A stretch of 32,324 nucleotides of DNA, from positions 1 to 32,324 of the forward strand of contig NZ_LDRK01000056.1 of assembly GCF_001477055.1 (NCBI RefSeq), read 5' to 3'. Below, in pieces: positions 13,511 through 32,324 of the stretch. The DNA is from Leucobacter chromiiresistens. GTDB lineage: Bacteria; Actinomycetota; Actinomycetes; Actinomycetales; Microbacteriaceae. Below the pieces are notes generated by a model. That model was not told the origin of the DNA. It did not search any database and saw nothing but the letters and a program-made list of their open reading frames with translations. Each line of letters opens with the position of its first letter. Positions within the stretch are counted from its first letter, which is position 1. The position numbers and the translations under genes are program-made.

Positions 13511-14449
13511 TCAAGCCGCCTGCGCGTGCTCCTCGCACGGGGACCCGGCGTGGGCGTCGCACACCACGAAGCGGTGCGTGCAGGCCGGGTCGGAGCAGTT
13601 CGACACCGCGTTCGAGGGTGCGCCGCACACGCGGCAGCGGCCGATGACGGCGGCTCCCGGGGCGAAGTCGAGCGCTTCGCGCCCGTCGAAGACGGCGAGC
13701 GATCCCTCCCAGAGGCCGTCGTTGCCGAAGGCCTCGCCGTACTTCACGATGCCGCCGTCGATCTGGTACACCTCGTCGAATCCTCGGGTGCGCATCGCCG
13801 CCGAGAGGATCTCGCAGCGGATGCCGCCGGTGCAGTAGGTGACGACCGGTCGCCCCTTGAGGTCGTCGAAGTCGCCGGCGTCGATCTGCGCGATGAAGTC
13901 GTGGGTCGTTCGGGTGCTCGGCACCACCGCGCCCGCGAACCGCCCGATCTCGGCCTCCCACGCGTTGCGGCCGTCGAAGAAGACCACCTCGTCGCCGCGT
14001 TCGGCCACGAGGTCGTTCACCTCCTGGGGTGAGAGGTGAACGCCTCCGCCCACCACCCCGTCGCTGTCGACTCGCGTCTCGTTCGGAATGCCGAACGCGA
14101 CCAGCTCATCGCGCACCTTCACGCTGAGGCGCGGGAAATCGGTGATGCGCTGCCACCGCGCCCCTCGCTCGACGCCGTGCAGCCGCTCTTCGGGCGCGTC
14201 GACGAGCGCAGTGCCCTCGCTCCACTTGGGTTCGAGCGCCGCGAACGGCGGGTACTCGCGAGTGCGCCGCAGGTACTGCTTGCACGCGTCGAGCTCGCCG
14301 CCGACCGTGCCGTTGATGCCGTGCGGCGAGACGATGATGCGTCCGCGCAGACCCAGTGACTCGCAGAGCTCCCGCTGCCACAGGCGCACGGCCTCGGGGT
14401 CGGCGACGGGCGCGAAGACGTAGTACAGCAGGATCTTGGGCTCGCTCAC
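13511..14449 (-). CDS. trhO: Oxygen-dependent tRNA U34 hydroxylase TrhO (YceA-type rhodanese)
   Basis: A 312-residue rhodanese-domain protein of the TrhO family, which forms 5-hydroxyuridine at the tRNA wobble base. The N-terminal ferredoxin-like domain contains [16 protein letters not shown] (36-51). The rhodanese domain contains [14 protein letters not shown] and the active-site loop [10 protein letters not shown], with catalytic cysteine C206. The C-terminus carries [14 protein letters not shown] and further Cys/His residues, a probable metal-binding knuckle. The start is GTG at 14449; TAGCAT lies six bases before it and no Shine-Dalgarno sequence is seen. It is divergent from the MerR-type regulator with 114 bases between starts and convergent with the ABC operon; no functional link to either is evident. 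Confidence 0.92.
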
Positions 14450-17106: not shown

Positions 17107-17910
17107 TCAGGGGCGAGCCTGGGCCTCGGCGCGCGCGAGCACGTGATCCTGGGCCATCTGCGCTTCGTCGATGCGCTGCTGCTGCTCGGGGGTGCGAACG
17201 AGCGGCGGGATCACCTCGTGCTGGTCGTTGACGATGACGACGTCGTGGTCGACGTGGTTGACCATCGCGTGCACGGCGTCGATGAAGTCGCGGCGCCGGA
17301 TCGCGTCGAGCACGCGCGCGTGGTCGCGCTCCATCTCCGCTCCGGTGGCGACGTTCGCGAGGCGCCCGCGATGCTCGGGGGTGCGGAGGCGGTCGTTGAT
17401 GCCCGCGTACAGGGCGGCGAGCAGGCGGTTCTTGGCGGCGTCGAAGACGAGGCGGTGGAATCGGCTGTCGAACGCGGTGTCGACGTCGGCGGCGAAGCCG
17501 AGCACGGGGCAGCGCGTGCAGCCGACCTCCTCGATCGCGGCGCGTTCGAGCGCCGCGATGTCCTCGTCGGTGCGGTGCAGGGCGGCCTGCTGGGCGGCCT
17601 CGATCTCGAGTGCGCGGCGGTAGCTGAGGATCTCCTCGAGCGTGAAGTCGGTGAGGAACTCGTTGAGGAGCGTGCTCGTCGGCGCGGCCGAGCGCACGAA
17701 GGTGCCGCGGCCCGGGAGGGTCTCGAGCATGCCGATGCTGGCGAGCGATCGCACGGCCTCGCGCACGGTCGACCGCCCCACCCCGGTCTGCTCGGCGAGT
17801 TCGGGTTCGATGGGGATGCGTCCGCCGACGGGCCACTCCCCGGTGGTGATCTTGCGACGCAGGTAGGCGAGCGTCGCGCGTGCTCGATCTGACCCTGTGG
17901 TCGCTGCCAT
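17107..17910 (-). CDS. GntR family regulator, FCD (FadR-like) subfamily
   Basis: A 267-residue regulator. The N-terminal winged helix spans about 8-75: LAYLRRKITTGEWPVGGRIP, then EPELAEQTGVGRSTVREAVRSL and the wing LPGRGTFVRS. The C-terminal FCD domain (about 95-245) has the expected motifs RRALEIEAAQQAA, DSRFHRLVFDAAKN and MERDHARVLDAIRRRD, whose Asp/His residues normally hold a metal and a carboxylate effector. The extra CTRC pair before the FHR motif is unusual. The start is ATG 17910, with GGAG six bases before it; the open frame to 18387 is only the shadow of the divergent gene. It heads a two-gene unit with the carboxylesterase. Confidence 0.92.
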   Translation of the reverse strand: MAATTGSDRARATLAYLRRKITTGEWPVGGRIPIEPELAEQTGVGRSTVREAVRSLASIGMLETLPGRGTFVRSAAPTSTLLNEFLTDFTLEEILSYRRALEIEAAQQAALHRTDEDIAALERAAIEEVGCTRCPVLGFAADVDTAFDSRFHRLVFDAAKNRLLAALYAGINDRLRTPEHRGRLANVATGAEMERDHARVLDAIRRRDFIDAVHAMVNHVDHDVVIVNDQHEVIPPLVRTPEQQQRIDEAQMAQDHVLARAEAQARP

Positions 17911-17957
17911 GATCACTCCGATTCGTCGGGCGCCTGGTGCGCCGATGCCGAGCATCC

Positions 17958-17963
17958 AGTATA
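17958..17963 (-). promoter_or_regulatory. Probable -10 of the gntR-esterase unit
   Basis: TATACT on the minus strand, about 48 bases upstream of the regulator start. It is a 5/6 match to TATAAT in otherwise GC-rich sequence. There is no clear -35 at 16-18 bases. Confidence 0.45.
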
Positions 17964-18025
17964 TCGAGCGGGAGCGGCGCCGGCCGGGGAGTCCCGGTGG
18001 GTGGGAGGGCGTCTCGGCGCGACGG

Positions 18026-18054
18026 TTGGCGCGGCGGGTCGCCGACCGTAGGCT
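18026..18054 (+). promoter_or_regulatory. Probable promoter of the PEBP gene
   Basis: TTGGCG (18026-18031), a 17-base spacer and TAGGCT (18049-18054). Transcription would start near 18061, giving a leader of about 50 bases that contains the Shine-Dalgarno site. Confidence 0.5.
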
Positions 18055-18109
18055 GGTGGGCAGCAACGGGCCGCAACGGGCAGGGTCGGTCAGTACACGA
18101 GGGGGTGCC

Positions 18110-18676
18110 ATGACGAACGGGAATCCGAGTCGCGGCGACATCGATCCGTATGCGCGCATGCGGCGGGTGCCGAGTTTCTCATTGCGCAGCACCGATATCC
18201 AGGATGGCGAGCCGCTGCCGGCGGAGCAGTTCGCCGCGGCGGCCGGGGGGTCGAACCGATCGCCGCAGCTGAGCTGGGAGGGGTTCCCCGACGGCACGCG
18301 GAGTTTCGCCGTCACCTGCTTCGACCCCGACGCCCCGACGGGGTCGGGGTTCTGGCACTGGGCGGTGGCGAATCTGCCGCTGAGCACGCGCGAGCTCGCC
18401 GCGGGGGCGGGCGAGGCGGGCGCTTCCGGCGGTGAGCTGCTGCCGGCCGGGGCGCTGACCCTGCCGAACGAGCGCCGGCAGCGGGCCTACGCGGGCGCCG
18501 CACCGCCGCGGGGCACGGGTGTGCATCACTACTGGTTCGTCGTCCACGCGCTCGACGTCGATCATGTCGACGTCGACCCGGATGCGACGCCGGCGGTGCT
18601 CGGGTTCACGATGCGGGATGCCGTGCTGGCGCGGGCGATCATCGTGGCCACGGGCGAGTTCGGGCAGGTCAACTGA
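18110..18676 (+). CDS. YbhB/YbcL-type PEBP protein
   Basis: A 188-residue phosphatidylethanolamine-binding-like protein of the bacterial YbhB/YbcL type. Motifs in order: FSLRSTDIQDGEPLP, RSPQLSWEGFPDGTRSFAVTCFDPDAPTGSGFWHWAVANLP (the ligand-pocket segment with DPDAPT and HW), GAAPPRGTGVHHYWFVVHALD, and the AVLARAIIVATGEFGQ end. The role of these soluble proteins is not settled. The ATG at 18110 is preceded by GGGGG and agrees with family length. It is divergent from gntR and ends at a small palindrome. Confidence 0.92.
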   Translation: MTNGNPSRGDIDPYARMRRVPSFSLRSTDIQDGEPLPAEQFAAAAGGSNRSPQLSWEGFPDGTRSFAVTCFDPDAPTGSGFWHWAVANLPLSTRELAAGAGEAGASGGELLPAGALTLPNERRQRAYAGAAPPRGTGVHHYWFVVHALDVDHVDVDPDATPAVLGFTMRDAVLARAIIVATGEFGQVN

Positions 18677-18844: not shown

Positions 18845-19852
18845 ATGCGACAGACCTCGTTCCGCCGCCGCGCACTCGCCATCGCCGGCCTCACCGCCGC
18901 CGCAGCCCTCACCCTCAGCGGCTGCTCCTCGTCCGACTCCTCGGGGGAGGGCGGATCGGCGGAGACCTTCAACATCGGGATCAGCCAGTTCGTGCAGCAC
19001 CCGGCGCTCGACTCGGCGACCGAGGGCTTCAAGCAGGCCTTCATCGACGCCGGGTACGTCGAGGGCGAGACCGTCAACTTCGACGAGCAGAACGCGAACG
19101 CCGAGCAGGCGACCGCGGTCACCATCGCCCAGGGCTTCGCGACCTCGGACAACGATCTGGTGCTCGCCGTGGCCACCCCGGCGGCCCAGGCTGCAGCCCA
19201 GGCCATCACCGACAAGCCGATCCTCTTCACCGCCGTGACCGACGCCGTCTCGGCCGAGCTCGTCGACTCGAACGAGACCCCCGGCGGCAACGTGACGGGC
19301 ACGAGCGACCTCGCGCCGCTCGACGAGCAGCTCAAGATGCTGCAGGAGATCGTGCCCGACGCGAAGAAGGTCGGCATCGTCTACGCCTCGGGCGAGGTGA
19401 ACTCGGAGGTGCAGGTCGAGGCGGCGCAGGAGGCCGCGGCCGACCTCGACCTCGAGATCGTCACGAAGACCGTCACCACCGCGAACGACATCGCGCAGGC
19501 GACCGAGGCCCTCGGCGACGTCGACGCCATCTACGTGCCCACCGACAACCTCGTCGTCTCGGGCATCGCGTCGCTCGTGCAGGTCGCCGAGGAGCAGCAG
19601 ATTCCCGTGATCGGCGCCGAGGCGGGCACCGTCGAGGGCGGCGCGGTCGCCACGCTCGGCATCGACTACGTCGACCTCGGCCACCAGACCGGCGAGATGG
19701 CCATCAAGATCCTCGAAGACGGCGCCGATCCGGCAGAGCTCGCCGTCGAGACCTCGAAGAGCTTCACCTACGTGGTCAACCCCGGCGCCGCCGAGCGCAT
19801 GGGCGTCGAGATCCCGAAGGAGATCCTCGACCAGGCGGAGACCGTCGAGTAA
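18845..19852 (+). CDS. TrpX-type ABC transporter substrate-binding lipoprotein
   Basis: A 335-residue binding protein of the ABC_sub_bind family (tryptophan/tyrosine-type TrpX and relatives). The signal peptide has RRR at 7-9, a hydrophobic core and lipobox LSGC with C27, then a Ser/Gly linker. The mature part shows FNIGISQFVQHPALD, DLVLAVATPAAQAA, GGNVTGTSDLAPLDEQL, VGIVYASGEVNSE and IYVPTDNLVVSG, all typical of the family. The aromatic amino acid preference comes from family knowledge only. AAAGGAT eight bases before ATG 18845 supports the start. The permease begins 75 bases downstream and the ATPase follows, giving a complete importer. Confidence 0.92.
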   Translation: MRQTSFRRRALAIAGLTAAAALTLSGCSSSDSSGEGGSAETFNIGISQFVQHPALDSATEGFKQAFIDAGYVEGETVNFDEQNANAEQATAVTIAQGFATSDNDLVLAVATPAAQAAAQAITDKPILFTAVTDAVSAELVDSNETPGGNVTGTSDLAPLDEQLKMLQEIVPDAKKVGIVYASGEVNSEVQVEAAQEAAADLDLEIVTKTVTTANDIAQATEALGDVDAIYVPTDNLVVSGIASLVQVAEEQQIPVIGAEAGTVEGGAVATLGIDYVDLGHQTGEMAIKILEDGADPAELAVETSKSFTYVVNPGAAERMGVEIPKEILDQAETVE

Positions 19853-19926
19853 CCCGGGTACCCGGCCCCCGCGGCCTCCCACCCGCTCGACCTCCCAACG
19901 AACGATACGAACAGGATGACCATCGC

Positions 19927-20985
19927 ATGATCGGCGCGCTCGAACTCGGCCTCATCTACGGGGTGATGGCACTGGGCGTCTACCTGACGTTCCGGGTGCT
20001 CAACTTCCCGGACCTCACGGTCGACGGCAGCTTCACCACGGGCGCCGCCGTCGCGGCAGCGCTGATCACGACCGGGCAGAACCCCGTCCTCGCCACCCTC
20101 GCCGGTGGCGGGGCGGGGCTCGTCGCGGGTATCGTCACCGGCCTGCTGCACACGAAGGGGCGCATCGACGGCCTCCTCTCGGGCATCCTGACCATGATCG
20201 CCCTCTGGTCGATTAATCTGCGCATCATGGGCACCGCGAAGGAGGACACGGCCGTCGCCGCCAACCTCCCGCTGCTGCGCGCCGACACCGTGTTCACCCC
20301 GCTCCGCGACGGCGACCTGCTCGGCACCTGGGGCGGCGTCGCCATCATCCTCCTCGCCGTGCTCGTGCTGAAGTTCATCGTCGACTGGTTCCTCTCGACC
20401 AACCTCGGCCTCGCCATCCAGGCGACGGGCGACAACGGCCCGATGATCCGCAGCTTCGGCGTCAACACCGACCGCACCACCATCCTCACCCTCGCGATCT
20501 CGAACGGGTTCGTCGGCCTCTGCGGAGCCCTCGTCGCCCAGTACCAGGGCTTCGCCGACATCAGCATGGGCGTCGGGCTGATCCTCGTCGGCCTCGCATC
20601 GGTCATCCTCGGCCAGGCGATCTTCGGCCAGCGCTTCATCTGGCTCGCCAGCCTCGCCGTGGTGCTCGGCGCCGTCATCTACCGACTCATCATCTTCTTC
20701 GCCCTGCGCGCCGGCCTCGACCCGAACGACATGAAGCTGATCACGGCACTGCTCGTGATCGCCGCGCTGCTGCTGCCGCGCTGGGGCTTCCTGCGGAGGA
20801 TCCCGATGCTGCGACGCACAGACGGCCGGGTGGTGCTCGAAGACGTCACGGCGCCGGCATCCGCCGCCGCGACGACCGGGGCCGACGACACCGCCGCCCG
20901 CGGCGGAGCGCCCCGGGGCGACGCCGACGCAGCCCCGATGACCGCCGGATCCTCCCCGGAACCCGACACCCACGCCGGAAGGTAG
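19927..20985 (+). CDS. TrpY-type ABC transporter permease
   Basis: A 352-residue permease of the BPD_transp_2 (LivH/RbsC-like) fold with about eight or nine membrane segments. It starts MIGALELGLIYGVMALGVYL and carries NFPDLTVDGSF, GLLSGILTMIALWSINLRIMG and the cytoplasmic coupling segment NLGLAIQATGDNGPMIRSFG. The last 60 or so residues are a disordered Ala/Thr/Asp-rich tail after RRTDGRVVLEDV, longer than in most relatives. The start is ATG 19927 with AGGA upstream. It ends four bases before the ATPase gene, so the two are coupled. Confidence 0.92.
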   Translation: MIGALELGLIYGVMALGVYLTFRVLNFPDLTVDGSFTTGAAVAAALITTGQNPVLATLAGGGAGLVAGIVTGLLHTKGRIDGLLSGILTMIALWSINLRIMGTAKEDTAVAANLPLLRADTVFTPLRDGDLLGTWGGVAIILLAVLVLKFIVDWFLSTNLGLAIQATGDNGPMIRSFGVNTDRTTILTLAISNGFVGLCGALVAQYQGFADISMGVGLILVGLASVILGQAIFGQRFIWLASLAVVLGAVIYRLIIFFALRAGLDPNDMKLITALLVIAALLLPRWGFLRRIPMLRRTDGRVVLEDVTAPASAAATTGADDTAARGGAPRGDADAAPMTAGSSPEPDTHAGR

Positions 20986-20989
20986 CCGC

Positions 20990-21781
20990 ATGCTCACCAT
21001 CGACCGCATCGAGAAGACCTTCTTCCCCGGGACCGTCAACGAGCGCCGCGCCCTCGGCGGCCTCAGCCTGCGCCTCGACGAGGGCGACTTCGTCACCGTG
21101 ATCGGCTCCAACGGCGCCGGCAAGTCGACGCTGCTGAACGCCATCTCCGGGCGCTACACCGTCGACTCCGGCAGCATCGAGATCGACGGCAGGCGCGTCA
21201 ACCGGCTCCGCGAGTTCCAGCGGGCGAAGTACATCGGCCGTGTGTTCCAGGATCCGATGGCGGGCACCGCGCCCGACCTCACCATCGAGCAGAATCTCGC
21301 GCTGGCCGAGCGCCGCGGCAGGAGCCGCGGTCTGGGGCTCGCGCTGAGCCGCACGCTCCGCGATCGCTTCCGCGAGGAGCTCACGTCGCTCGAACTGGGG
21401 CTCGAGCACCGCCTCACCGCTAAGGTCGGGCTGCTCTCCGGTGGCCAGCGGCAAGCCCTCTCGCTCCTCATGGCCGGGTTCACGCGACCCCGCATCCTGC
21501 TGCTCGACGAGCACACCGCGGCGCTCGACCCGCAGCGCGCCGCCCTCGTCACCGAGCTCACCGATCGCATCGTCGCGCAGGGGTCGCTCACCACCCTCAT
21601 GGTCACGCACAACATGGAGCAGGCGCTGCGACTCGGCAACCGCCTCATCATGATGCACGAGGGCGACATCGTGTTCGAGGCGTCGGCCGCCGAGAAGCGG
21701 CAGCTCACCGTGCCGCGGCTCCTCGAGGAGTTCGCGAAGATCAAGGGCGCCCAGCTCGACGACCGGGCGCTGCTCGCCTGA
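20990..21781 (+). CDS. TrpZ-type ABC transporter ATP-binding protein
   Basis: A 263-residue ATPase. Walker A is GSNGAGKST (39-47), Q-loop Q87 in FQDPMAGTAPDLTIEQN, signature LSGGQ (149-153), Walker B ILLLDE (169-174) followed by HTAALDP, and the switch H207. The DEHTAALDP sequence after Walker B is the form seen in this TrpXYZ-like subfamily. The start at ATG 20990 has GGAAGG upstream. It is the last gene of the three-gene importer; no strong terminator follows before the PutA-like gene 60 bases on. Confidence 0.93.
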   Translation: MLTIDRIEKTFFPGTVNERRALGGLSLRLDEGDFVTVIGSNGAGKSTLLNAISGRYTVDSGSIEIDGRRVNRLREFQRAKYIGRVFQDPMAGTAPDLTIEQNLALAERRGRSRGLGLALSRTLRDRFREELTSLELGLEHRLTAKVGLLSGGQRQALSLLMAGFTRPRILLLDEHTAALDPQRAALVTELTDRIVAQGSLTTLMVTHNMEQALRLGNRLIMMHEGDIVFEASAAEKRQLTVPRLLEEFAKIKGAQLDDRALLA

Positions 21782-21841: not shown

Positions 21842-24800
21842 ATGGCAGCTGAACCCATCGCCCCGGCGTCGGTGTGGGACGCCGTTTCGGATCGCTCCGA
21901 AGCGCTCGTGCACGCGTGGATCGAGGCGCTGCGCGACCGCACGCCCGACGGTGCGCTGGAGGGGCGCGGATCGGCGCATCTGCTCGAAGGGCTGCGCCGC
22001 GACCCCGACAGCTTCGAGTTCACGCGTCGGCTGCTCGACCTGGTCGCCGGCACGGAGGATGCCTTCGCCTCGGCGCTCGGTCTGCACGCCGTCTCCCAGG
22101 AGGTGCCCGATTCCCTCCCGGCGCGCGACCGGTTCGCGGTGCGCGCCGGCGGGGCGACGTCGCTCGGCCTCCCGTGGGCGGTGATGCCCGTCGCTCGCAA
22201 GTGGCTGCGGGATCGCGTGTCGGGGCTCGTGCTCGCCGCCCGGTTGCCGAGCGGGGTCGGCGGCACGGGTGGTGCGGGCGGCACGGGCGGCACGGGCGGT
22301 GCGGCGCCCTCGGGGCGCTTCGCCTCCTCCGCCGGATCGGCGCTCGCGGAGGCGCACCGCCGCTGCACCGACGCGGGCATCACCCCCGTGACGCAGCCGC
22401 TCGGCGTGGGCGTGCACGGCCCCGTCGGCGCGGTGCGCGAAGTCGAGCGGCTCGTCGCGCTGGCCGCGCACCCCGCGGTCGCCCATCTCGTGGTCGATCC
22501 GCAGCGCATCGCCCCCGGCGGCTCCGACTGGTCGTTCGACGACGATGTCGAGCGCGCGGCGGTCGCACTCGAGCCCGTGCTCCGCGCCTCGGTGGAGCAC
22601 GGCACCACGATCCATCTCGCCGCCGGCAGCGTTCGGTGGGCGCGCATGCTGCCCGAGATCGTCGTGCGGGCGCTGGTCGATCCCGCACTCGACCGGGCAC
22701 GGGTCGGCGTGCAGCTGCTCGCGGAGCTGCCCGAATCCCGTGAGTACTACGGCCGCTTGAGCCGGTGGGCGCAGCGCCGGGTCGCCGACGGCGGTGCGCC
22801 GGCGGAGGTCGTCATCGGAGTCGGGGGCGTCGCGGGGGCGGAGCGGATCTCCTCGATCCAGACAGGCCTCCCCGTGCCGGTGCTGGAGGACCGGGCCGAC
22901 GTGCTCGCCCAGCTCCTCCGGCTCGTCGAGCTCGCCCTCCACCCGGGCCGCGCCGCGGTGCTGCGGCCGGTGCTCGCGACCGAGGACGTGTTCGTGCTCG
23001 CCTCGGCGATCGCGCTCGCCGAGGAGCTCGGCTCGCTCGAGCTGGGGGCCGTGCAGGTGCGCAGCGGTGTCGCCCCGGGTCTCGCGACGGCGCTGCGCGG
23101 CGCCATGTCGCACGTGCGCGTCTCAGTGCCCGTCGTCTCCCCGAAGGAGTTCGGGGGCGCCGTCGATCTGCTCGTGGGGATCGCGGCCGAGGCGGCCGAT
23201 CCCGATTCCAGCCTCTCCCGGCTCGAGGCGCTCATTCCGCAGCACGACGACTCCGACGGTGACGGAGCGGACCCGGGAGACGAGGATCCGGAGGCCGGCG
23301 CGGAATCGGCGCTCACCCGCGCATTCGCCGAGTTCCGCACGGCGCTCGGCCGGGCCTCCGAACCCGCGCCCGGCTCGCATCGCACGCAGGATCGCGCCCG
23401 CGAGTGGGACCCCTCGGAGCGCGACAGCGCGCTCTTCTACCGTGCCCCCGACGAGCCTGCGCGCTTCGAGACCGGCGGTCTCACCGCGGCGGTGCTCGGA
23501 CTGACGCGGGGGTCGACCGGGGAGTTCACGCTCGAGGCGGTCGCGCCGCCGCGCGCCATCCCCGCCGTCTCCGAGTCGGGATTCGCGAACGAACCCGGCA
23601 CCGACGCGACCGTCGCCGGCAACCGCGAGTGGGCGCGCGAGTTGTTCCGGGCGGCTCGCACCGAGGCCGATGCTCTCGACACCGCGAATGACACGGTGGC
23701 GCTCTCCGCCGCCGATCTCAACCCCGACCACGTCGCCGCCGAGGCCCGGTCGCGCGCCGAGGCGTGGTCTGCGCAGCCGTTCCGCACGCGAGCGTCGCGC
23801 CTGCGCCGGTCCGCGCTGGCGCTGGTCGCCGCGCGCGATCGGCTGATCCAGCTGCTCGCCACCGAGACGGGCGCTCCGGTCGCGGAGCTCGATGCGGAGG
23901 TCGACGACCTCGTCGATGCGGCCCGCTACAGCGGCCAGCTCGCCGAGGCCCTCGGCGCCGTGCGCGGGGCGACGTTCGTGCCCGACCCGCTCGTGCTCGT
24001 CGCCGCCGACGCGCCGACGCCGCTCTCGGTGCAGGCGGAGGCCGTCTTCGCGGCGCTCGCCGCGGGGAGCGGAGTGCTCTGGATCGTGCCGCACCGTCTG
24101 CGGGCATCGGCCGCCGCCGTGCTCGAGGAGTGCGAGGTCGGCGGGCTCACCCCGGGGGTGGTGCGGCTCGAGGCGGCCGTCGTCGGGCAGACCGTCGCCG
24201 AGCTCGCGGCGCACCGCGGTGTGGATCGCGCCTGCGTCATCGGCTCGCGCGCCGACGCGCTCGAGCTGTCGCGCCGGCGCCCCGACCTCCGGGTCGAGGG
24301 GCGGTTCCGCGCCCGGGGGTTCGTACTCGTCACCCCCTCCGCCGATCTCGATCTGGCGATCGCCGACGTGGTCGCCTCGGCGTTCGGCGGGGCGGCCGGC
24401 GATCTGCGCGCGGCCCGCGGCGTGATCCTGCTCGGGAGCGTCGCCCGTTCGCGTCGGTTCCGGGAAGGCCTCGCCGATGCGGTGCACGCGCTCCGCGCCG
24501 GCGACAGCGGGCGCGACGTGGACTCGGATGTGCTCGGTCTCCAGGTCGGCCCGCTGCACGCCGCGCCGAACGCCGCGGAGCGGCGCGCCCTGACCGAGCT
24601 CGCCCGCGGCGAGGAGTGGATCGTGACGCCTGCTCCGCTCGATGCGGAGGAGCGGGTCTGGTCGCCCGGGGTGCGGTCGGGCGTGGCGGCCGGGGCCGCC
24701 TTCTGGGATGACGCGCGCACGGCTCCGGTCATCGGGATCACGACGGCGCACTCGTTGAGCGAGGCGCTGGCGCTGCAGAACAGCCCGGGCAGCGGCGGAG

Positions 24801-25663
24801 TCGCCGCGATCCACTCGAACGACGCCGACGAGATCGCCGCCTGGCTCGACGGCGTCGAGGCTGCGGCGGTGTCGGTCAACCGCACGACGACGCGGGCGCG
24901 GGTGGAGCGCCAGCCGGGAGGCGGGTGGAACGATGCGGGCATGGGGCTCTCGGGCCTCGCCGGCGGACCGAACCGGTTGATCGCACTCGGCTCGTGGCGG
25001 CTCCGGGAGGGGAGCCGCAGCGAGACGCTGCACCTGCGCGGGCTCGAGCCGGAGGTGCGCCTGCTCATCGAGGCGCTCCAGCCGGTGCTGCCGTACCAGG
25101 CCTTCGACGAGCTGCGCCGTGCCGCGCTCGCCGACGCCCTCACCTGGCGCACGTCGTTCGGGGTCGACCGCGATGCGATCGGGCTGGGCATCGAGCGCAA
25201 CGTCATGAGGCACCGCCCCGTCGCCACTCACGTGCGGCTCGCGGAGGGCGGCGCGGTCGTCTCGCTCGCGCGGGTGGTCGCGGCGGCGCTCCTCGCACGC
25301 GCGCCGATCACGATCTCCACGGGCGAGGTGCTGCCCGCGGAGCTCGCCGACTTCCTGGAGCGCTACGACATCGAGGTGTCGCTCGAACGCGACGACGACT
25401 GGCTCGAGCGGTTGGCGGTCGCCGGGCCGGTCGCGGCGGACGGCACGCGAGCGCTGCGTGTGCGTCTCATCGGCGGGGATCGCGTGCGCGCCGCGGAGTG
25501 GCTCGGCCAGCAGGATCGCGTGGCCATCTGGGCGGAGCCGGTGACGATGGCCGGCCCCGTCGAGCTGCTCTCCCTGGTGCGGGAGCAGGCGGTCTCCGCG
25601 CGGGCGCACCGGCACGGACTGGCGGTGACGGTGCCCGGGCTCGACGACGCGATCGAGCCCTGA
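21842..25663 (+). CDS. PutA-like protein with degenerate proline dehydrogenase and aldehyde dehydrogenase domains
   Basis: A 1273-residue protein with the full layout of actinobacterial PutA (proline to glutamate): PRODH-like about 95-460, an acidic linker, ALDH-like about 610-1040, and the C-terminal ALDH-superfamily domain about 1090-1270 (RNVMRHRPVATHVRLAEGG, SLVREQAVSARAHRHG). Framework stretches are preserved (VPVVSPKEF, VTPSADLDLA, NRTTTRARVERQPGGGW). By eye-alignment the catalytic residues are not: ALDH Asn/Glu/Cys correspond to P725, R821 and L855, and the KP lysine to V749. PRODH positions IKVS, NLDMEE and RRLEE read VVDP (D219), HLAAGS (A260) and VGIAAE (G446, I447). The frame is intact, so I read it as a maintained pseudoenzyme, possibly regulatory; a working PutA may exist elsewhere. 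The start is ATG 21842 (leaderless-type). Confidence 0.85.
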   Translation: MAAEPIAPASVWDAVSDRSEALVHAWIEALRDRTPDGALEGRGSAHLLEGLRRDPDSFEFTRRLLDLVAGTEDAFASALGLHAVSQEVPDSLPARDRFAVRAGGATSLGLPWAVMPVARKWLRDRVSGLVLAARLPSGVGGTGGAGGTGGTGGAAPSGRFASSAGSALAEAHRRCTDAGITPVTQPLGVGVHGPVGAVREVERLVALAAHPAVAHLVVDPQRIAPGGSDWSFDDDVERAAVALEPVLRASVEHGTTIHLAAGSVRWARMLPEIVVRALVDPALDRARVGVQLLAELPESREYYGRLSRWAQRRVADGGAPAEVVIGVGGVAGAERISSIQTGLPVPVLEDRADVLAQLLRLVELALHPGRAAVLRPVLATEDVFVLASAIALAEELGSLELGAVQVRSGVAPGLATALRGAMSHVRVSVPVVSPKEFGGAVDLLVGIAAEAADPDSSLSRLEALIPQHDDSDGDGADPGDEDPEAGAESALTRAFAEFRTALGRASEPAPGSHRTQDRAREWDPSERDSALFYRAPDEPARFETGGLTAAVLGLTRGSTGEFTLEAVAPPRAIPAVSESGFANEPGTDATVAGNREWARELFRAARTEADALDTANDTVALSAADLNPDHVAAEARSRAEAWSAQPFRTRASRLRRSALALVAARDRLIQLLATETGAPVAELDAEVDDLVDAARYSGQLAEALGAVRGATFVPDPLVLVAADAPTPLSVQAEAVFAALAAGSGVLWIVPHRLRASAAAVLEECEVGGLTPGVVRLEAAVVGQTVAELAAHRGVDRACVIGSRADALELSRRRPDLRVEGRFRARGFVLVTPSADLDLAIADVVASAFGGAAGDLRAARGVILLGSVARSRRFREGLADAVHALRAGDSGRDVDSDVLGLQVGPLHAAPNAAERRALTELARGEEWIVTPAPLDAEERVWSPGVRSGVAAGAAFWDDARTAPVIGITTAHSLSEALALQNSPGSGGVAAIHSNDADEIAAWLDGVEAAAVSVNRTTTRARVERQPGGGWNDAGMGLSGLAGGPNRLIALGSWRLREGSRSETLHLRGLEPEVRLLIEALQPVLPYQAFDELRRAALADALTWRTSFGVDRDAIGLGIERNVMRHRPVATHVRLAEGGAVVSLARVVAAALLARAPITISTGEVLPAELADFLERYDIEVSLERDDDWLERLAVAGPVAADGTRALRVRLIGGDRVRAAEWLGQQDRVAIWAEPVTMAGPVELLSLVREQAVSARAHRHGLAVTVPGLDDAIEP
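22262..22303 (+). repeat. Gly/Thr/Ala simple repeat in the PutA-like gene
   Basis: Fourteen codons made of GGC/GGT, ACG and GCG encode residues 141-154 of the PutA-like protein. It is a simple-sequence insert in the PRODH-like part, between LPSGV and APSGRF, where functional PutA proteins have no such stretch. Confidence 0.7.
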
Positions 25664-26244: not shown

Positions 26245-26329
26245 GGCGGGTTACCCGAGCGGCCAAAGGGGGCTGACTGTAAATCAGCTGGCACTGCCTA
26301 CGGGGGTTCGAATCCCTCACCCGCCACCA
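26245..26329 (+). tRNA. tRNA-Tyr (anticodon GTA), CCA encoded
   Basis: The acceptor stem GGCGGGT pairs with ACCCGCC; A326 is the discriminator and CCA (26327-26329) is encoded. The anticodon stem GCTGA/TCAGC holds the loop CTGTAAA with anticodon GTA at 26279-26281. A long variable arm (class II) and GGTTCGAATCC in the T arm agree with bacterial tRNA-Tyr. Confidence 0.97.
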
Positions 26330-26331
26330 CT

Positions 26332-26377
26332 GACAGGCCCCGTCCTCATCGCAAGCGCGACGAGGACGGGGCCTGTC
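26332..26377 (+). terminator. Terminator after tRNA-Tyr
   Basis: A 21-bp stem (26332-26352 with 26357-26377, one mismatch) around an AAGC loop, starting two bases after the tRNA CCA and followed by GCGTTTC. Confidence 0.85.
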
Positions 26378-26555
26378 GCGTTTCATCGGTGATCTGAGGA
26401 GGGCGTGGACGCGGTCCTTCCGACGCGATGGCGCGCCCCTGCATGGAGGCGCGCTCGCCCCTTCGATTCCGGCGCCCGGCCCGCGCTCCGAGCGGGCCCG
26501 GTTCTCGGTGTTCGCGGGCCGACGTGGGCGGACACGCCCGGGATGTGGGCCGCAG

Positions 26556-26584
26556 TTGCCCGGTGGTGCGGATCGGCGTAATGT
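26556..26584 (+). promoter_or_regulatory. rRNA promoter P1
   Basis: TTGCCC (26556-26561), 17 bases, TAATGT (26579-26584). Spacing and position, about 450 bases upstream of 16S, suit the distal rRNA promoter. Confidence 0.6.
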
Positions 26585-26673
26585 ATTCCCTTGTCAGCGA
26601 AACGGAAAACGGCGCGAAAGCGGCCGAGATTCGGTTCGGACTTCGGCTCTCACGAGATCACCGAGAGCAGGAC

Positions 26674-26703
26674 TTGCGAAAGTCTTGCTCGGGCGTGTAC
26701 AGT
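26674..26703 (+). promoter_or_regulatory. rRNA promoter P2
   Basis: TTGCGA (26674-26679), 18 bases, TACAGT (26698-26703). The proximal promoter, about 330 bases upstream of 16S. Confidence 0.65.
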
Positions 26704-26832
26704 AAGAGATCCGATCTCACCGCAAGGTGGACACCCGAAGGGTGGTCCAACTGGAGCGCTTGCTGCTCCCGGCGGTTGATGACAGGTTGCTGTTCGGAGC
26801 TCTCTTGGTTGGGGGTGACGGGTGGTGTCTGG

Positions 26833-26855
26833 TCTTTGAGAACTCAATAGTGTGC
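26833..26855 (+). promoter_or_regulatory. Conserved rRNA leader motif (antitermination/processing)
   Basis: TCTTTGAGAACTCAATAGTG is the leader motif seen before 16S in many actinobacteria. A related copy, CGTTGAGAACTACACAGTGG, is in the 16S-23S spacer at 28845-28864. Its place ahead of both large rRNAs suits an antitermination or RNase III processing signal. Confidence 0.55.
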
Positions 26856-26891
26856 ACTTAAATTGTCATATGCCAATTTGATGTAAAATCC

Positions 26892-26936
26892 CCGGCACTC
26901 GCACGTTGGTGCGGGTGCGGGAGATTCCTTTTTTGG
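26892..26936 (+). terminator. Hairpin plus T-run in the rRNA leader
   Basis: A 10-bp stem (26895-26904 with 26909-26918, one G-T pair) around GTTG, extended by two more pairs after a mismatch, is followed after a few bases by six T residues. It has intrinsic-terminator form but stands between the promoters and 16S. Confidence 0.5.
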
Positions 26937-27030
26937 ATAACAAGAATCGTCAGTTTTGATGGTTCTGTTGCCAGATTGAACTCGCTTCCCGGTGGCTCGT
27001 TTTTCCCGAGTCCGGGGGGCAATCGTTTTT

Positions 27031-32124
<5,094 letters not shown>

Positions 32125-32248
32125 TCTTCCCACCCTCGGGTGGGGCATGATGTGTGTTTGTAACGATTGTTTCGCGTCCACTTTGTGGTTCTAGACGTAC
32201 GGCCACGCAGTCACCCGTTGGGGGTGGGTGTGGTCATATGTGAATAGA

Positions 32249-32324
32249 GTTACGGCGGCTATAGCGTCAGGGAAACGCCCGGTCACATTCCGAACCCGGA
32301 AGCTAAGACTGACTGCGCACCTGA
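32249..32324 (+). rRNA. rrf: 5S ribosomal RNA, partial (cut by window end)
   Basis: Begins GTTACGGCGGCTATAGCG and continues through GGGAAACGCCCGGTC and CCGAACCCGGAAGCTAAG; about 76 of the expected 115-120 bases are in the window. It lies about 125 bases after 23S in the usual operon order. Confidence 0.93.

Follow-up and report, generated by a model that had tools for sequence, protein, structure and literature searches.

Does a long gene that looks like putA still encode an enzyme? In the window, by which we mean the whole 32,324-nucleotide stretch of Leucobacter chromiiresistens DNA analysed here, the plus-strand frame 21842-25663 holds 1273 codons and a stop and is open throughout. Its product is a PutA homologue with the PutA domain order, as indicated by Pfam, by the sequence match to the solved structure 5ux5 and by Foldseek. 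Both the uninterrupted frame and the whole PutA layout with its C-terminal aldehyde dehydrogenase (ALDH)-superfamily domain, claimed in a preliminary description of this DNA, are borne out. The main parts are as follows.

21842..25663, plus strand: gene for a PutA-like pseudoenzyme of 1273 aa, without interruption in the window; orthologue-type match in 54/54 Leucobacter genomes
22322..23191, plus strand: degenerate proline dehydrogenase (PRODH) barrel, aa 161-450 (Pfam Pro_dh, 34 bits)
23342..23641, plus strand: linker, aa 501-600, in which RAREWDPSERDSALFYR and TGGLTAAVLGL occur; strongly conserved in the clade of dead orthologues (the dead clade)
23723..24982, plus strand: degenerate ALDH domain, aa 628-1047 (Pfam Aldedh, 128 bits)
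24989..25627, plus strand: C-terminal domain, aa 1050-1262; of the main parts, the one best conserved in the dead clade

The Pro_dh match is weak, covering residues 234-437 against a cut-off of 27 bits, and the Aldedh match spans residues 628-1037. NCBIfam equivalog cut-offs are missed by far (top score 74.7 versus 659.65), with the PutA models scoring 46.9 versus 747 and 42.1 versus 1750. Pfam finds no DNA-binding domain in the protein and no match to the linker (aa 501-610) or the C-terminal domain searched alone; among PDB sequences, the C-terminal domain alone significantly matches only 5ux5. A PHROGs scan returned one match, an ALDH-region family of unknown function. The predicted structure has a PRODH barrel with eight alternating strands and pLDDT of about 80-94 in most blocks, in models of middling overall quality (pTM 0.43 and 0.60).

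Loss of both active sites

An Asp counts among the substrate and catalytic residues of the PRODH domain of PutA, and the Lys of the ALDH domain binds the cofactor. We checked 14 active-site columns in an alignment that follows E. coli PutA numbering and found 12 of them replaced, in both enzyme domains. The PRODH replacements are K329 to D219, D370 to A260, E372 to G262, K434 to V327, Y540 to S428, R555 to G446 and R556 to I447; those in the ALDH domain are N779 to P725, K802 to I748, E883 to R821, C917 to L855 and E1018 to A958. Only G435 (G328) and E559 (E450) are retained. All 14 columns are intact in each of the 21 canonical PutA rows fetched from Leucobacter. Lys265, Arg488 and Arg489 of S. 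meliloti PutA have roles in the PRODH site, and Asn707, Glu810 and Cys844 in the ALDH site (PMC12398946). Positions in the two active sites are listed below, with counts from the aligned Leucobacter orthologues.

22496..22498, plus strand: D219 codon, PRODH substrate-lysine column; Asp in 47/48 and Glu in 1/48 dead orthologues, Lys in 21/21 canonical rows
23177..23182, plus strand: G446-I447, substrate-binding Arg-Arg columns; first Arg in 4/48 and second Arg in 0/48 orthologues
24014..24016, plus strand: P725, ALDH oxyanion Asn column (from the alignment)
24083..24085, plus strand: I748, cofactor-binding Lys column (from the alignment)
24302..24304, plus strand: R821, ALDH catalytic Glu column; R 28, H 11, Q 7, G 1 and C 1 of 48
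24404..24406, plus strand: L855, ALDH catalytic Cys column; P 24, L 15, A 8 and S 1 of 48

The loss goes beyond chance. Ten key residues were followed through the 48 aligned orthologues: none is kept in 42 of them and a single one in 6. The PRODH substrate and catalytic set (Lys, Asp, Tyr, Arg-Arg) is absent from the orthologues as it is here, and a migrated cysteine was rejected, Cys occurring in no column in more than 8/48 orthologues. The preliminary description had reported the loss of the ALDH Asn, Glu and Cys and of the PRODH Lys, Asp, KGAN motif and Arg pair, and the alignment to characterised PutA agrees on every one, with no intact Cys/Glu/Asn or Arg-Arg at the catalytic columns. Its placement of the cofactor-binding Lys at V749 has to be corrected, since V749 occupies the adjoining Pro column. 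What is left is an enzyme homologue without the conserved catalytic motifs, one mark of a pseudoenzyme.

Conservation and selection within Leucobacter

An orthologue search in Leucobacter and a dN/dS analysis had been proposed as checks. The first found a match in every one of the 54 genomes searched. The second gave NG86 dN/dS of 0.039-0.195 for 10 dead pairs and 0.064-0.173 for 6 canonical pairs of the genus, reaching 0.44 in pairs that include PutA-less lineages; two dead sets give a GY omega of 0.063 and 0.040, canonical sets 0.053 and 0.035. Such purifying selection is a further mark of a pseudoenzyme. By a rough count that assumes equal mutation rates, about 15 stop-making hits would be expected without constraint at dS 0.19.

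Frame breaks occur in 4 of the 50 extracted Leucobacter loci, and a second frame is absent in 46/50. Two breaks lie inside the gene (L034, L043), one near its start (L024) and one near its end (L025). In G020 and G008 canonical PutA reads in one frame, so that the break there is not obviously due to poor assembly. G031 is a possible fifth locus with a frame break. Orthologue frameshifts had been named beforehand as evidence of plain decay; they do exist, but in a minority of loci. With the residues of both sites gone, most frames kept and purifying selection acting, plain decay does not explain the Leucobacter gene, as the preliminary description had supposed when it inferred selection. Frame disruption and neutral dN/dS, the marks of a pseudogene, do not characterise it.

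Inverted constraint between domains

Constraint is inverted between the two kinds of protein: conservation falls on the enzyme domains in active PutAs and on linker plus C-terminal domain in the dead clade. Of the columns invariant in active proteins, the dead clade keeps 41/129 in the PRODH barrel, 86/163 in the ALDH domain and 23/28 in the C-terminal domain, and the entropy ratio of C-terminal domain to PRODH is 0.65, versus 1.79-2.47 in active groups. A further 84 positions are conserved specifically in the dead clade (51 rows). Region omega (GY) agrees with this picture in two dead sets; the opposite pattern is seen in four PutA-less genomes, with 0.073 for linker plus C-terminal domain and 0.030 for PRODH on a deep tree. 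Among eroded copies from other genera, 16 of 17 keep a larger share of active-invariant columns in the C-terminal domain than in PRODH. An omega of 1.000 for PRODH in four eroded rows (g31/g35) may be a failed fit, and we do not rely on it.

These patterns bear on the idea that the PRODH barrel was rebuilt as a different active site for another reaction. The column of D370 holds Glu in 38/48 dead orthologues, and the clade-specific charged residues D219, E295, D382 and R407 would be located where strands of the predicted barrel end or slightly beyond. Yet within the dead clade the ALDH domain, the linker and the C-terminal domain are all better conserved than the barrel, an unusual situation for an active site, and no known catalytic motif was recognised in the protein. 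We therefore regard a new enzyme as rather unlikely.

Eroded second copies in Microbacteriaceae

Eroded second PutA copies also occur in other genera of the family, and an order-level search of 149 genomes, family members included, yielded further loci. By parsimony the eroded copies require at least 6-7 changes: the minimum is seven on both the 84-row and the 32-row trees and drops to six when four mildly eroded rows are left out of the larger one, in trees that came from 'quick' searches and retain the catalytic columns themselves. The placement of the long-branch rows L163, L161, L077 and L076 is unsure. A single origin of the eroded copies is rejected by the AU test (p 7.7e-31; 32 rows, 18 eroded and 14 intact).

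Pairs with eroded copies from other genera have higher dN/dS, 0.26-0.52, and some of these copies may be decaying. One could extend this to Leucobacter, taking its gene for a slowly decaying duplicate whose frame mostly survives by chance or after a recent loss of function, as the few broken loci would also allow. Genus-wide presence, dN/dS of 0.04-0.20, the 84 newly conserved positions and the inverted constraint make that quite improbable.

Genomes without another proline dehydrogenase

The suggested search for a second, intact putA found a strong PRODH match (122-212 bits) in 45/54 Leucobacter genomes, and eroded and intact copies occur together in 19 family genomes outside Leucobacter. Both observations would suit a role as obligate partner of canonical PutA, or as its allosteric regulator, in mixed oligomers. 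However, the remaining 9/54 genomes show neither canonical PutA nor any proline dehydrogenase besides this protein; 7 of these are at least 92% complete and 3 are single contigs at 99-100%, although in draft genomes a missing PutA could be an assembly gap. Obligate partnership with a real PutA is thus contradicted, and the part of partner or regulator of such a PutA, among the roles proposed in the preliminary description, finds no support as a general one. We consider the partner reading unlikely.

Upstream transporter

The stop codon of an ABC transporter ATPase lies 60 bases before the gene on the same strand, and an ATPase precedes the gene in the same orientation in 23/50 dead loci with enough flank (in one case 1.5 kb away). 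The protein might accordingly belong to an uptake operon and act, say, as a ligand sensor in the cytosol. Since no ATPase was found upstream in 27/50 loci (flanks of 0.7-1.5 kb), the association cannot be a general requirement; a general operon role was rejected, and we hold this explanation to be very improbable. A promoter and terminator scan found no promoter-like site and two terminator-like sites, on the opposite strand and near chance.

Proposed explanation

The product of the gene is, in our view, fairly likely to be a neofunctionalised double pseudoenzyme, kept for a role without proline or P5C oxidation. As read from sequence, its catalytic residues are gone, frames are mostly kept, selection is purifying, constraint has shifted and the gene persists in some genomes that show no other proline dehydrogenase. 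Its ancestor would be a second PutA paralogue of Microbacteriaceae in which both sets of catalytic residues disappeared along the branch from which Leucobacter and three related sampled genera descend; afterwards it would have been retained for a role that uses neither oxidation. Leucobacter keeps the protein under selection, and it has probably taken on a new job. We infer that it acts by binding, relying mainly on its linker and C-terminal domain; it might take part in a protein assembly or use the rebuilt barrel to sense a ligand.

A wider scenario is possible, though we put it forward only tentatively. The second PutA of Microbacteriaceae may have had a catalysis-free function in its linker and C-terminal domain, permitting independent active-site erosion some six or seven times; in Leucobacter and its three relatives erosion would have run to completion, leaving a dedicated non-oxidative factor whose rebuilt acidic barrel pocket binds a new ligand and which outlasts the loss of PutA.

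This bacterial family contains PutA copies that are intact, half-eroded or dead, and active paralogues can serve as controls; in effect, nature has repeatedly run the experiment of turning a large bifunctional enzyme into a non-enzyme. The copies also suggest that the linker and C-terminal domain of PutA have their own function. For a gene with a match in each of the 54 Leucobacter genomes searched, annotation by homology as PutA or aldehyde dehydrogenase would be misleading.

Comparison with known systems

We found no description of a PutA pseudoenzyme in the literature searched. Among solved structures the best sequence match is to the PutA of Corynebacterium freiburgense (5ux5), in three stretches past threshold over residues 48-1131; we take this to be a 'class 3B' PutA. 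It shares the order PRODH, linker, ALDH and C-terminal part and is the top match by both sequence and Foldseek, but, unlike the Leucobacter protein, retains the Lys, Asp, KGAN, Arg-Arg, Asn, Glu and Cys motifs. Non-catalytic roles have been described for some PutA proteins, namely trifunctional PutA and Ralstonia solanacearum PutA (PMC9132996). These are still enzymes; in the Leucobacter protein Pfam finds no DNA-binding domain. Trypanosome AdoMetDC has a catalytically dead paralogue, prozyme (PMC5201418). Prozyme is likewise a dead paralogue of an enzyme, but it forms a complex with the active one, while the Leucobacter protein occurs in nine genomes in which no active paralogue was found. 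Human ALDH16A1 is described as an ALDH-superfamily pseudoenzyme without the whole catalytic triad, thought to act via protein interactions (PMC10650815). The Leucobacter protein resembles it in belonging to that superfamily and lacking the triad. To our knowledge the human protein has no PRODH domain, whereas the Leucobacter protein combines two unrelated catalytic domains, both dead, in a single chain.

The PutA-like gene, its surroundings and its active-site residues

The dead PutA-like protein (P0001) is encoded by an uninterrupted reading frame located among the following features:

13511-14449, minus strand: UPF0176/rhodanese gene, upstream
17107-18387, minus strand: GntR/FCD regulator, upstream
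18845-21781, plus strand: three-gene ABC transporter (PF04392 binding protein, BPD_transp_2 permease and ATPase), directly upstream
21842-25663, plus strand: dead PutA-like open reading frame, 1273 codons
Downstream of the latter: GNAT gene
26245-32324, plus strand: tRNA-Tyr and then a 16S-23S-5S rRNA operon, after the GNAT gene, with the 5S cut by the window end

According to Pfam, P0001 has an ALDH match and a weak PRODH match. Aligning P0001 with E. coli PutA shows replacements in 12 of the 14 checked columns, whereas those of G435 and E559 (E. coli PutA numbering) are retained. With one exception, the active-site residues named in the preliminary description are borne out by this alignment: the residue in the cofactor lysine column is I748 rather than V749. 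The N-terminal part of P0001 also contains a Gly/Thr-rich stretch, GGTGGAGGTGGTGG (window 22255-22300), absent from the other eight rows compared.

Orthologues in Leucobacter

All 54 searched genomes of Leucobacter (family Microbacteriaceae according to NCBI) have an orthologue-type match, that is, a best hit of at least 45% identity, compared to 35-41% for canonical copies. We extracted 50 loci (L001 and L006-L054), leaving out genomes G012, G031, G035 and G045, and aligned 48 of them, excluding L034 and L043, which are split inside the gene. None of the ten key residues is kept in 42 of the aligned orthologues and one is kept in the remaining 6. The lysine column has Asp (47) or Glu (1), the aspartate column has Glu in 38 and Asp in 2, and the cysteine column is occupied by Pro, Leu, Ala or Ser; as to a relocated cysteine, no alignment column has Cys in more than 8 of the 48. 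By comparison, all 14 columns are intact in each of the 21 canonical PutA rows fetched from Leucobacter, including the copy from the same genome as P0001, which is truncated where contig C183 ends.

Frame-broken orthologues were observed in G011 (L034), G020 (L043), G016 (L024) and G008 (L025), the last two being among the aligned rows and having a terminal piece in another frame. In G011 and G016 canonical PutA is split over frames as well, which hints at sequencing errors there, but this is not so in G008 and G020. Separately, a canonical PutA match (G002:C1:912222-914288) crosses one in-frame TAA, and its ORF (L071) stops near the C-terminus.

In the PF01619 search, 45 of the 54 genomes gave a strong PRODH match (122-212 bits). 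There was no match at all in G001, G014, G024, G041 and G045, and the sole match in G021, G034, G047 and G052 was the dead copy. When these nine genomes were searched with canonical PutA, the best hit was the dead copy, the others among the matches listed being generic ALDHs. Completeness is at least 92% in seven of the nine and reaches 99-100% in G001, G014 and G024, each of them a single contig. Three Leucobacter genomes that also have canonical PutA contain apparently stand-alone PRODH frames of 389-409 aa (G042:C4:371530, G032:C11:251309 and G015:C6:81975).

Second PutA copies across Microbacteriaceae

In the family sample (120 genomes, three of them Leucobacter), 115 genomes had a match. 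We considered a copy eroded if at least one of the ten columns was changed; the range is from one (L138) to all. Among non-Leucobacter genomes with two copies fetched, both were intact in 13, and one was intact and one eroded in 19; in G124 one copy is intact and the other partial, with 8 of 8 readable columns intact in the partial one. Of the 21 that yielded a single copy, 20 had an intact one and one (G072) an eroded one. The Leucobacter-type dead copy is present in one sampled genome each of the genera g47, g6 and g51 (L075, L076 and L077, keeping 0, 1 and 0 of the ten key residues), and in G058, another g6 genome, the best hit is canonical-like only. On the trees the eroded state requires at least seven changes, or six without four mildly eroded rows, and a single origin of the eroded copies was rejected. 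L173 (G157:C1:569400-573300), a PutA-like remnant whose frames are short (381 and 347 aa), is an example of plain decay within the family.

Among the 50 dead loci with sufficient flanking sequence, 23 have the ABC ATPase upstream of the dead gene. Of 18 dead or eroded loci examined in other genera, 8 have the UPF0176 gene upstream of the second putA at a distance of 1.3-10 kb (L176, L180, L181, L182, L186, L188, L189 and L191; seven genera) and one has it on the other side (L175); neither of two intact putA loci examined has it nearby. This recurrence suggests one ancestral locus for part of the family, with the UPF0176 gene as a possible marker.

Selection and shifted constraint

NG86 dN/dS is 0.039-0.195 in 10 dead-orthologue pairs versus 0.064-0.173 in 6 canonical pairs, and omega (GY+F3X4) is 0.063 and 0.040 in two dead sets versus 0.053 and 0.035 in the canonical sets. 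Under the same model, omega for the linker plus C-terminal domain is 0.032 and 0.020 in the dead sets versus 0.089 and 0.055 in the canonical ones, and for PRODH it is 0.064 and 0.039 versus 0.036 and 0.027. Column entropy gives a C-terminal/PRODH ratio of 0.65 for the 48 dead rows, or 0.63 when 20 of them are subsampled; three active groups of 20, 32 and 30 rows have ratios of 2.47, 2.14 and 1.79. Of the columns invariant in active PutA, the dead clade keeps 41/129 in PRODH, 86/163 in ALDH, 9/10 in the linker and 23/28 in the C-terminal domain. Outside the Leucobacter-type clade, 16 of the 17 eroded copies, all but L150, likewise retain a larger share of such columns in the C-terminal domain than in PRODH. 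In addition, the 51 dead rows (48 from Leucobacter plus L075-L077) have 84 positions with at least 90% conservation that stay below 25% in both active groups. However, four PutA-less genomes run opposite on a deep tree (omega 0.030 for PRODH and 0.073 for the linker plus C-terminal domain), and PutA-less lineages compared with their nearest rows give dN/dS of 0.15-0.44 (16 comparisons), both of which count against this pattern.

Possible mode of action

Judged by sequence, both sets of catalytic residues are lost, the gene is maintained, constraint has moved, and the gene is present in genomes without another PRODH. We infer that a protein of the P0001 type would act by binding, its linker and C-terminal domain carrying the function. 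Since the barrel in the structure model is complete in secondary structure and clade-specific charged residues sit near its strand ends, the predicted barrel might also hold a new ligand site. Our literature search, which did not reach most subscription papers, found no PutA or proline dehydrogenase pseudoenzyme among the papers listed. Among solved structures, the nearest to P0001, both by sequence and by Foldseek, is 5ux5, the PutA of Corynebacterium freiburgense.
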